Shown here: positions 17,690-25,753 of the stretch, in pieces | How positions within the stretch are numbered: the first letter of the stretch is position 1 | Layout of the letters: every line of letters begins with the position of its first letter | Origin: Lachnospiraceae bacterium | GTDB lineage: Bacteria; Bacillota; Clostridia; Lachnospirales; Lachnospiraceae | DNA length: 45,314 nucleotides | Assembly: GCA_017461775.1 (NCBI GenBank) | Contig: JAFTXD010000046.1 | Coordinates: 1 to 45,314, forward strand | Direction of reading: 5' to 3' | Translations under genes and position numbers: made by a program | Notes under the pieces: generated by a model | What the model saw: only the letters and a program-made list of their open reading frames with translations | Told to the model about the DNA's origin: nothing | Database searches by the model: none

Positions 17690-17734
17690 CTGACCGAATC
17701 CGTGGGCTGTGCCGGGGGTGGGGAAGGCTTTTTT
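17690..17734 (+). repeat. Possible relic of a giant-stem-loop left arm
   Basis: CCGTG-GGCTG-TG-CCGGGGG-TGGGG followed by a T-run closely resembles the left arm of the element at 25033-25081 (CCGTG-CTG-CCGGGG-TGGGGG then T7). No matching right arm was found nearby, so it would be a solo, degenerate copy. Confidence 0.35.
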
Positions 17735-17758
17735 AGTTCAATTTTTTAAAAAAAGTGG

Positions 17759-17787
17759 TTGACAATTATGAAACCTAGTTATAATAT
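17759..17787 (+). promoter_or_regulatory. Promoter of the PadR operon
   Basis: TTGACA (17759-17764), then TAATAT (17782-17787) after 17 nt, or TATAAT (17780-17785) after 15 nt. Transcripts would carry a leader of about 390 nt including the operator array and the giant stem-loop. Confidence 0.6.
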
Positions 17788-17811
17788 GTCAATATAAGAT
17801 ATATCGAGACT

Positions 17812-17852
17812 CGACATGTCGCGAGCAAACATGTTTACGGTCGACATGTCGA
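17812..17852. promoter_or_regulatory. Triple ACATGT operator array
   Basis: Three palindromes centred exactly 15 bp apart: CGACATGTCG (17812-17821), AAACATGTTT (17827-17836) and TCGACATGTCGA (17841-17852). Successive sites also give ATGT-N9-ACAT pairs, close to the ATGT/ACAT half-site pattern known for PadR regulators. They lie just downstream of the promoter and before the PadR gene, fitting autorepression. Confidence 0.65.
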
Positions 17853-17862
17853 GGATAACCAG

Positions 17863-18147
17863 AGATGTTCGAGAGGGATGCTTCGGGGTAGGAGCTGGAA
17901 TATAGCAGTGTTAATTTTGAATATGGAGATATTTTAGATTTTCTTAGCTTGCTGCTCCATATTCAGCGGAATCCGGGCATGGACGCCCGGATTAGGAGGC
18001 ACTGTGCACGGGAAGCACATTGCCTACGACGCGTCGCCCTACATTAACCTTTATGCAGCAAACTTAGAAAATCTTAAATATCGGAGTCTGAAAAATTAAC
18101 ACTGCTATATTCCAGCTCCTACCCCGAAGCATCCCTCTCGAACATCT
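17863..18147 (+). ncRNA. Giant stem-loop element 1 (structured RNA candidate)
   Basis: A perfect 56-bp inverted repeat (17863-17918 with 18092-18147) encloses 173 nt. The order inward is: a symmetric 9x9 purine-rich internal loop; a 28-bp helix (17928-17955 with 18055-18082) with two U-U mismatches and one C-A; a 9-bp hairpin with loop ATGGAC (17970-17993); the linker AGG; an 11-bp hairpin with one mismatch and loop ACGGGAA (17997-18025); and a weakly structured tail. It lies in the leader of the PadR operon, ending 38 nt before the ATG. A homologue is at 25033-25302. I know no named RNA family that fits. Confidence 0.75.
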
Positions 18148-23897: not shown

Positions 23898-24965
23898 ATG
23901 AAAAAATTAATCGGACTTTTACTTGCAGGAATGCTCGCACTGAGTGTCGTAGGATGCGGCGGTGCAGAGGAAAATACGAATATTGCGGATGAATCCGTAC
24001 CGGCTACAGAGGCCGTGACACAGGAAAGCGAAGCGGAAGCTACCGAAGCACCTGTAGAAACCCCGAAGCCGGAAACCATCACCATTCAGGCGATGAACGC
24101 AAACAAGGAAATGGCAGATATAGAGGTTCCTTATGACCCGGAAAGAATTGCCATTTTAGATATGGCAGCACTAGATATCATCGATTCTCTTGGCTTAGGC
24201 GACAGAGTTGTGGGTAGTGCTAAGGTGACCATTGAGTACTTAACTGACTACAATCCGGACGACTCTGAGGGGAAAATTTTGAATCTTGGTTCTGTAAAGA
24301 CTGCGGATATGGAGCAGCTTGCTATCTGTGAGCCGGACATCATCTTCATCGGTGGACGTCTCTCCAAGGAGTTTGAGAATCTTTCTGTGATTGCACCTGT
24401 GGTATATCTTGCTGTAGATTACGAGAAGGGTGTGGTACAGAGTACCGCAGACAATGCAAAGACCATTGCTTCCATTTTCGGTAAGGAAGCGGAGGTAGAG
24501 GCTATGATGGAAGGCTTCCAGACCAGAGTAGATGCACTGAAGCCTGTAGTAGAAGGTAAGAATGTGCTTCTGGGTATGTACAACAACAACGCAATGAGCA
24601 TCCTTGGTACTGACAGCCAGCTATCCATCATCGGAAATGAAATGGGTGGCATCAACCTTGGCGACACTGTCGGTGAAGTAGATAAGCCTGCTCACGGCGA
24701 CGACGCATCCTGGGAAACCATCATCAACTTAAATCCGGAGTACATGTTTGTACTGGACAGAAGCACAGCTACCGGTGCAGCTGACGAAGGTGTTCTGGGC
24801 GCACAGGAGGTAATCGAGAACGACTTAATCAAGGAGCTTGATGTATACAAGAATGGCAACATCGTATACTTTATCCAGCATGCAAACGTATGGTATACCT
24901 CTACCGGTGGTATTCAGGCACTTGACACGATGCTTTCTGATTTAGAGGCTGCATTGCTTCAGTAG
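23898..24965 (+). CDS. Iron-siderophore binding lipoprotein (YclQ-like)
   Basis: 355 residues. The lipoprotein signal MKKLIGLLLAGMLALSVVGC has Cys20 in the lipobox; a Glu/Ala/Thr spacer follows, then a type III periplasmic-binding fold with PERIAILDMAALDIIDSLG and CEPDIIFIGGRLSKEF in the first lobe and EYMFVLDRS in the second. This matches the FecB/YclQ family that captures ferric siderophore outside the cell. Last gene of the operon, with AGGAGG before the ATG and a terminator at 24992-25021. Confidence 0.9.
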   Translation: MKKLIGLLLAGMLALSVVGCGGAEENTNIADESVPATEAVTQESEAEATEAPVETPKPETITIQAMNANKEMADIEVPYDPERIAILDMAALDIIDSLGLGDRVVGSAKVTIEYLTDYNPDDSEGKILNLGSVKTADMEQLAICEPDIIFIGGRLSKEFENLSVIAPVVYLAVDYEKGVVQSTADNAKTIASIFGKEAEVEAMMEGFQTRVDALKPVVEGKNVLLGMYNNNAMSILGTDSQLSIIGNEMGGINLGDTVGEVDKPAHGDDASWETIINLNPEYMFVLDRSTATGAADEGVLGAQEVIENDLIKELDVYKNGNIVYFIQHANVWYTSTGGIQALDTMLSDLEAALLQ

Positions 24966-24991: not shown

Positions 24992-25021
24992 AAGCAGGTG
25001 GGATTCTTCTCACCTGCTTTT
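24992..25021 (+). terminator. Terminator of the iron-uptake operon
   Basis: AAGCAGGTG (24992-25000) and CACCTGCTT (25011-25019), perfect stem, TTTT tail. It ends only 12 nt before the second giant stem-loop. Confidence 0.8.
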
Positions 25022-25032
25022 GGTAGTGTGGG

Positions 25033-25302
25033 GGGAACTGCGTCCGTGCTGCCGGGGTGGGGGATGGGTGGTACATTTTTTTGAATGCGGAGATATTTAG
25101 AATTTCTTAGGTTTCTGCTCAATAATCAGGGACAAGTGGACAAGGATGTCCACTTGAGGAGGCACTGCGCATGGACGCGCATTGCCTCCGGCCCGTGGCT
25201 TTTCAAAAAACTTCCGCAGAAACCTTAGAAATTCTTAATATTGCAGCTCTGATAAAAAATGTACCATCCATCCCCCACCCCGGCAGCACGGACGCAGTTC
25301 CC
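25033..25302 (+). ncRNA. Giant stem-loop element 2 (structured RNA candidate)
   Basis: A 49-bp inverted repeat (25033-25081 with 25254-25302) with a single G-U pair encloses 172 nt. Inward: a purine-rich internal loop (GAATGCGGAG against TGCAGCTCTGA); a 26-bp helix (25093-25118 with 25216-25241) with two U-U mismatches 10 bp apart; a 9-bp hairpin with loop AAGGAT (25133-25156); the linker AGG; and an 11-bp hairpin with loop ATGGAC (25160-25187). Homologous to element 1 (17863-18147) but with different, still-pairing stem sequences. It ends 37 nt before the EamA ATG. No promoter was seen between the terminator at 25021 and the element. Confidence 0.75.
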
Positions 25303-25339: not shown

Positions 25340-25753
25340 ATGTGGTTTTTGTTTGCAATTTTGTCGGCGGTTTTTGCGGCGCTGACGTCGATTCTGGCGA
25401 AGATTGGGATTGAGGGCGTGAATTCTAATTTGGCGACGGCCATTCGTACCTTGGTGGTAGTGGCCATGGCCTGGGGAATGGTGCTGCTCACAAATACCCA
25501 GGGAGGAATTGTGGATATCAGCAAACGGAGCTGGCTTTTCCTGATTCTTTCAGGGCTGGCTACGGGGGCTTCGTGGTTATGTTATTATAAGGCATTGCAG
25601 CTGGGGGAGGCATCCAAGGTGGTGCCCATCGATAAGCTGAGTGTGGTGATTACCCTGGTGCTGGCCTTTGTTTTTCTGCATGAGAAGTTTACCGCCAAGT
25701 CGTTGATTGGAAGTATTCTTATCGCCGTTGGTACCCTTATCATGGTAGTATAA
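25340..25753 (+). CDS. Half-size EamA-family transporter
   Basis: 137 residues, about five membrane spans, a single EamA/DMT repeat (LFAILSAVFAALTSILAKIGIEGVNS, WLCYYKALQLGEASKVVPIDKLS, then FLHEKFTAKSLIGSILIAVG). Such half-length proteins must dimerise to transport metabolites; the substrate is unknown. AAGGAGG precedes the ATG. It is preceded by the second giant stem-loop and stands apart from the iron operon. Confidence 0.88.
   Translation: MWFLFAILSAVFAALTSILAKIGIEGVNSNLATAIRTLVVVAMAWGMVLLTNTQGGIVDISKRSWLFLILSGLATGASWLCYYKALQLGEASKVVPIDKLSVVITLVLAFVFLHEKFTAKSLIGSILIAVGTLIMVV

Follow-up and report, generated by a model that had tools for sequence, protein, structure and literature searches.

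The window analysed here, a 45,314-nt stretch of Lachnospiraceae DNA (contig JAFTXD010000046.1), contains at 25033-25302 a palindrome whose core is already known as TwoAYGGAY, a candidate RNA family (Rfam RF01731). What is new is that the TwoAYGGAY element has long, fast-changing, mirrored arms and is dispersed as a repeat. On balance, we favour reading it as a dispersed, probably mobile, non-coding palindromic repeat centred on TwoAYGGAY, in which the pairing of the stems is maintained mainly by a process acting on the DNA.

Between the arms of the focal palindrome, which enclose an interior of 172 nt, 48 of the 49 pairs are Watson-Crick, the remaining one being G-T (25068/25267). A second element of the window, at 17863-18147, has arms paired at 56/56 Watson-Crick positions and an interior of 173 nt. 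The recomputed pairing agrees with the geometry given in a preliminary description of the window, which had reported 49-bp arms, interiors of 172 and 173 nt and these exact coordinates. The fold z-scores of 25033-25302 and 17863-18147 were −20.1 and −20.0, with 0/200 shuffles equally stable, and the inverted-repeat score observed in the window was 56, against a maximum of 14 across 20 windows shuffled by two-base blocks. The features are the following:

23898..24965, + strand: upstream gene, Peripla_BP_2 (PF01497)
24992..25021, + strand: terminator-like hairpin and T-run, 3′ of the upstream gene and directly before the left arm, read from the sequence
25033..25081, + strand: 5′ (left) arm, 49 nt, G-rich, partner 25254-25302
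25085..25249, + strand: TwoAYGGAY core, Rfam RF01731, cmscan 120.6 bits, model positions 1-168, gathering score 43
25092..25118, + strand: 5′ strand of the long interrupted core helix in the minimum free energy structure, covarying helix 2, partner approximately 25216-25242
25133..25156, + strand: hairpin 1 of the fold, CAAGTGGACAAGGATGTCCACTTG, loop with GGA, covarying helix 3, 9 pairs in 31 sequences
25158..25189, + strand: hairpin 2 of the fold, loop ATGGAC, helix 4, 99.5% of cells paired
25216..25242, + strand: 3′ strand of the long interrupted core helix in the fold
25254..25302, + strand: 3′ (right) arm, 49 nt, C-rich, pairing with the left arm
25340..25753, + strand: downstream gene, EamA-like transporter (PF00892), in an ORF from 25334, with the ATG at 25340 after AGGAGG read from the sequence
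17863..18147, + strand: second copy, with perfect 56-bp arms (17863-17918 and 18092-18147) and an RF01731 core at 17922-18089

Both window interiors match the full RF01731 model (1-168), with 120.6 bits for the focal copy and 99.2 bits for the 17863 copy. The two elements are homologous and have a common core and different arms, as the preliminary description had proposed. That description had also read the arm as containing a G-U pair in place of an A-U: the G-T pair is present, but the nearest relative of the focal copy (C139:7088) has G-C there, and comparison with the arm of the 17863 copy says little because the two arms are unlike. As for the AYGGAY-type loops, in the focal copy hairpin 2 has ATGGAC and hairpin 1 has CAAGGATG, i.e., AAGGAT, with A replacing the Y of the name. 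When the focal copy was tested as an intrinsic terminator, no T-run was present behind the right arm.

The table entry of Weinberg et al. 2010 marks TwoAYGGAY as RNA “y” and cis-reg “n” (probably RNA, probably not cis-regulatory), whereas the type given in the Rfam entry for RF01731 is Cis-reg. In the passage on the family by Gardner et al. 2014, CsrA binding was proposed and a poorly conserved external stem was mentioned in an older Rfam model; part of the arm had thus been noted previously. In the literature passages on the family, we found no description of its dispersal or of long arms.

The source genome (hereafter G000, a 2.9-Mb assembly) has 37 RF01731 matches and a closed 4.1-Mb relative (G006) has 30. 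The preliminary description had predicted a family with many copies and had held that copies identical throughout would count against its reading; the G000 copies differ from each other. Carriers are patchy, with RF01731 matches in 25/101 genomes of the genus and 45/299 of the family (per-genome copy numbers in these scans are lower bounds), and the core is conserved across 44 genera, in different carriers.

The Rfam match does not reach into the arms, whose sequence varies from copy to copy. Of the 37 G000 copies, 34 could be judged (the other three have almost no flank on one side), and in 33 of these the two arms are nearly perfectly complementary. These 33 copies have at least 23 Watson-Crick arm pairs beside the core, mostly 45-73. 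A degenerate arm is found at C83:17139 (29/45 columns), and C58:150, at the end of its contig, folds back on itself over 120 pairs, which is unusual and possibly an assembly artefact. The arm alignment has a gap in 12/34 judged copies, so bulges without a mirror exist. Considering other genera (28 genomes, one copy each), the arms scored at least 15 in 22 genomes and were typically ~30 bp long, while flanks 300 nt further out scored at most 7; the 6/28 arms scoring below 15 were excluded from the pair counts given below. In G006, arms are imperfect in near-identical copies. Many G000 copies lie within ~150 bases of contig ends (C158, C83, C82, C144, C152, C113, C136, C42, and C58), and with so many copies in this position the assemblies seem to break at these palindromes.

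In the genome G074, both long arms hold GGGGACGG...GTCCCC repeat-like stretches (L163-L165, L160, L161, L171, and L166), and contig C50 of this genome has one tandem pair of identical copies. The presence of other repeat-like sequence in both G074 arms, together with the variation of arm sequence from copy to copy, is what would be expected if the arms were inverted copies of host DNA produced at each insertion site. We consider this origin very improbable, as the G000 arms have common G-rich words (motif information of 11.05 bits; six shuffles, for which fewer restarts were used, gave 8.4-8.7) and the arms of related copies can be aligned.

Within the palindrome, the focal copy (C17:25085) and C139:7088 share 92.6% identity over 256 nt, with no similarity continuing beyond it. 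Similarly, C152:36227 and C113:4199 present 1 difference in 165 core positions, have the next 49 nt in common and then diverge; we infer that these 49 nt are arm, the left side of both copies being unassembled. What disperses in G000 is the whole of arm, core and arm. Inspection by eye of the G000 flanks outside the arms showed neither a shared terminal repeat nor a duplicated target. An exact empty site was not found among the nearest relatives, which are just 72-80% identical; three relatives (L096, L097, and L100) keep both focal flanking genes at this identity but have no RF01731 match, and in L096 and L097 the focal site holds an ORF with the appearance of an MntR-type regulator.

In G006, 19/30 copies (reference included) lie in a common non-coding repeat of ~450-530 nt with at least 92% identity, one of them in two pieces, and four of these 19 units have a different, longer downstream part. 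The unit termini are TGGAAAGTTAGT-type inverted repeats with TAA/TTA adjoining. No ORF accounting for the units was found in two units examined, nor in the others examined. Searching the end pattern in G006 and nine stretches for an autonomous transposon with the G006 ends, we found no transposase between matching ends among the matches listed. Allowing up to two mismatches, the pattern matched 50 and 65 times and its reversed control 41 and 40 times, so that only matches with zero or one mismatch are informative. The TGGAAAGTTAGT-ended units of G006 (e.g., L108, L113, L350, and L351) are ~0.5-1.2 kb long, non-coding and bounded by terminal inverted repeats (TIRs), and unit ends often adjoin TAA, possibly a stop codon. 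Two candidates were set aside: a companion protein gene beside single-copy elements, with no common neighbour seen by eye among the ORFs of 13 loci, and phage and plasmid carriers, for which no match was found.

The genes around the element give a different picture in the two genomes. The focal copy lies between the Peripla_BP_2 and EamA genes, behind the terminator-like hairpin, and 24/25 judged G000 copies are likewise between co-directional genes (16 along the gene direction and 8 against), with one between convergent genes. The background of gaps of at least 100 nt in 437 kb of G000 comprises 69 co-directional, 20 divergent, and 12 convergent cases, giving a co-directional excess (24/25 vs 69/101) with p 0.004, or p 0.07 against gaps of at least 250 nt. 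G006 differs, with 17/30 copies between convergent genes.

A miniature inverted-repeat transposable element (MITE) is a short non-coding repeat found in many places with unrelated flanks, and this is what we observed. The element could then be a passive MITE-like repeat, whose structure is merely needed or tolerated by the transposase of another element, with no RNA or host-factor role. The TIR-bounded units of G006, the other non-coding units with similar ends and the convergent placement in that genome fit such a repeat. We judge it unlikely, since the core is conserved over 44 genera in different carriers and, in G000, the copies lack common ends outside the arms and show the co-directional bias.

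Promoter-like scores of at least 9 in the element’s direction occurred in 7/26 left flanks and 10/26 right flanks, where shuffles expect 17%. Thus, no promoter excess was seen upstream of the left arms, 7/26 being near the shuffled level. The 17863 copy has the best left promoter-like score of the set (12), in front of a PadR gene, and may well be transcribed. Window positions 17700-17862, before this copy and the PadR gene, contain a TTGACA/TATAAT promoter-like stretch and TCGACATGTCGA-type inverted repeats; judging by these motifs, the element could possibly lie in the 5′ UTR of an autoregulated PadR leader.

Then, we evaluated the covariation of the core over 31 of the 37 G000 cores (six omitted). 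In this alignment 98.8% of 1426 cells were paired (shuffled 84.2%) and 31/46 core pairs had changed on both sides (17.1 in shuffles), with 0/500 shuffles as high. Double-change cells were 196 against 46.9 in shuffles, and the covariation score was 0.432 against 0.148, with shuffles that do not preserve relatedness. Sliding the partners by 1-3 columns left at most 44% of cells paired and at most 23 double-change cells. Hairpin 1 alone had 279/279 cells paired, 55 double changes, and zero one-sided ones. The preliminary description had called for a covariation test over many genomic copies, reading covariation as a sign of an RNA and a lack of it as a sign of a DNA element. Covariation is indeed far above shuffles, but the rule itself is not supported here: one-sided changes were almost equally A-C and G-U, unlike in rnpB and 6S RNA. 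The stem changes hint at one DNA arm being copied anew from its partner, and paired changes alone do not show RNA function.

The comparison with these RNAs rests on strand symmetry: a G-U on one strand is an A-C on the other, and selection acting on an RNA should tolerate the first much more readily than the second. Ten genomes supplied the 50 sister pairs that we compared (unpaired divergence 13%), pairs with no stem change, with more than 25% unpaired divergence or with fewer than 40 unpaired positions having been excluded. In the core stems, one-sided changes were 36 G-U, 34 A-C, and 50 other, with 150 double against 107 single changes; the 50 other mismatches point to alignment noise, which inflates A-C. 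In the arms, the counts were 22 G-U, 14 A-C, and 10 other, with 141 double against 46 single. The same procedure on genus-matched controls gave 52:3 (G-U:A-C) and 24 other for rnpB (120 double, 76 single) and 45:5 and 11 other for 6S RNA (30 double, 60 single). Treating changes as independent, Fisher p values were 5e-8 (core) and 1.5e-4 (arms) against rnpB, and 9e-6 and 0.003, respectively, against 6S RNA. The SAM riboswitch (3:2) had too few changes to be informative and was discarded as a control. The double:single ratio was also dropped as evidence: rnpB shows the same excess of double changes, so this ratio alone proves nothing.

Other counts of the same changes were less uniform. Cell counts within genomes gave G-U:A-C 135:62, compared with 70:8 for rnpB and 181:16 for 6S RNA, which leaves room for some RNA-level selection. 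The joint alignment of 128 distinct cores (142 extracted and 141 kept, copies with N or short cores being dropped) gave 146:176, and the pooled arms 105:80, or 120:89 with the other genera added (p 0.04). In general, the near-symmetric one-sided changes favour repair at the DNA level in which one arm is the template for the other, and the pairing looks mainly DNA-kept, with some RNA selection possible. Arm and stem changes are mostly mirrored, and insertions and deletions often look so as well: 26 arm gaps over 469 columns in 12 sister pairs lay in bulge-free paired stretches of both copies. These are 12 of 15 hand-picked pairs (arms at least 60% identical, three below 60% being left out), and gap placement is uncertain at such divergence.

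Template switching is a DNA route to mirrored stem changes described in passages of PMC8794818, where G-C is expected to outnumber C-G in stems, and U-A to outnumber A-U. Among G000 arm pairs we counted 555 G-C, 162 C-G, 342 T-A, and 255 A-T, with a score favouring G-U (the G-U:A-C count of the sister-pair arms used equal penalties). In the repeat that we favour, one arm would serve as template for the other, by template switching or hairpin-primed repair at replication. The arm sequence would then drift fast while pairing persists, and the conserved loops and internal loops would be held by the binding of some factor. Fixed loop sequences need some sequence-specific selection, which DNA repair does not explain. 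The leading published candidate for this binding would be a transcript bound by CsrA.

GGA is present in loop 1 of 90/128 and in loop 2 of 120/128 distinct cores, and a per-genome table implies at least one GGA loop in every copy. Both loops have GGA in 36/36 G000 cores examined, and overall loop 1 has lost it in 38/128. The csrA gene was found in 80/101 genomes of the genus, in detail 23/25 carriers and 57/76 non-carriers (Fisher p 0.09); the two carriers without csrA are 59% and 73% complete genomes, and G000 has two matches to PF02599 (csrA). Taken as sequence patterns, the GGA loops and the csrA distribution are compatible with the published candidate CsrA binding.

These observations bear on whether TwoAYGGAY is a functional structured RNA, either a CsrA-binding sRNA or a cis element, with stems and arms kept by RNA selection and dispersal secondary. 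The family was published as a candidate RNA, with CsrA binding proposed in the passages cited above, and the loop GGA counts, csrA in 23/25 carriers, the strong covariation and the G-U preference in cell counts (135:62) all suit an RNA. We nevertheless hold it possible rather than probable: one-sided changes are near-symmetric when compared with two RNA controls (rnpB and 6S), csrA is also common in non-carriers, loop 1 often lacks GGA, the upstream promoter excess is not seen, and copy numbers ranging from 1 to 37 would be uncommon for an RNA gene.

Long mirrored arms are found also elsewhere in G000. In 436,628 bases of this genome, inverted repeats with a score of at least 20 and a spacer of at most 320 were 19, nine with the TwoAYGGAY core and ten without. 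In this genome, then, long mirrored arms do not single out TwoAYGGAY, in keeping with a DNA process. Nine non-TwoAYGGAY palindromes in the scanned stretches had no Rfam match. Members of a second palindrome family share a conserved core containing GGTACTAGGCTCGAAAAAACCTCGCCAAG and CGTTTTTC and differ in their long arms; the core has six matches in 437 kb, and there was no Rfam match. The family includes these G000 loci:

C93:58701-58890 (L304)
C117:19187-19328 (L310)
C117:23113-23256 (L311)
C74:23339-23499 (L314)
C11:22885-23096 (L321)

In L216 (contig C67 of genome G062), a match to this second family lies ~200 bases from a TwoAYGGAY copy. A third core, AAAGGTTCCGATGCAGTGGCAAGTCACCTTT, has different long arms, two matches (G000 C163:9419-9535, L316, and C11:35132-35268, L321) and no Rfam match. 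Moreover, G000 C44:51546-51874 (L308) is a 329-bp palindrome with perfect 53-bp arms, nested long stems, and a fold energy of −256 kcal/mol.

A broader and rather doubtful possibility is that mobile palindromes whose mirrored arms are hypervariable form a class, in which a small conserved core (TwoAYGGAY, and in the same genome two or more unrelated ones) would fold as single-stranded DNA and hairpin-primed copying would rewrite one arm from its partner during spread or replication. Arm sequence could then change freely without loss of the fold. If this were true, TwoAYGGAY would no longer be simply an RNA family but an element acting as DNA, or as both DNA and RNA, and covariation would not indicate RNA function in families of this kind.

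Covariation is widely read as proof of functional RNA, and here a curated Rfam family, with copies behaving like a dispersed repeat, covaries very strongly while its remaining one-sided changes are near-symmetric. If stems of TwoAYGGAY are kept paired mainly at the DNA level, some of the catalogued candidate RNAs may be DNA palindromes whose pairing is maintained by templated repair, and comparing G-U:A-C counts with those of genus-matched RNA controls would be a cheap test. The element is also a natural system for measuring how often the arm of a long palindrome rewrites its partner.

REP/BIME and similar sequences are dispersed bacterial palindromic repeats. The element resembles these and MITEs in being short, non-coding, multi-copy, and intergenic, but differs in that the G000 arms are hypervariable between copies, and in that genome neither a shared terminal repeat nor a duplicated target was seen. 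Compared with the TwoAYGGAY RNA described in RF01731, the focal core fits the whole model and has the two hairpins with AYGGAY-type loops; the differences are the long near-perfect arms beyond the Rfam match, the dozens of dispersed copies, and the nearly strand-symmetric one-sided changes. The CsrB/CsrC-type sRNAs that titrate CsrA would share with it GGA in hairpin loops and two such hairpins adjacent (a proposal found in passages of PMC4333381); judging from the sequences, TwoAYGGAY would differ from them by its high and variable copy number and by one loop often without GGA. Lastly, hairpins maintained by template switching, as presented in passages of Monttinen and Loytynoja 2022 (PMC8794818), share mirrored changes, perfect stems, and the G-C/U-A bias (555:162 and 342:255 in the G000 arms); those are RNA genes, mainly rRNA, whereas here we describe a repeat family with arms tens of bases long.
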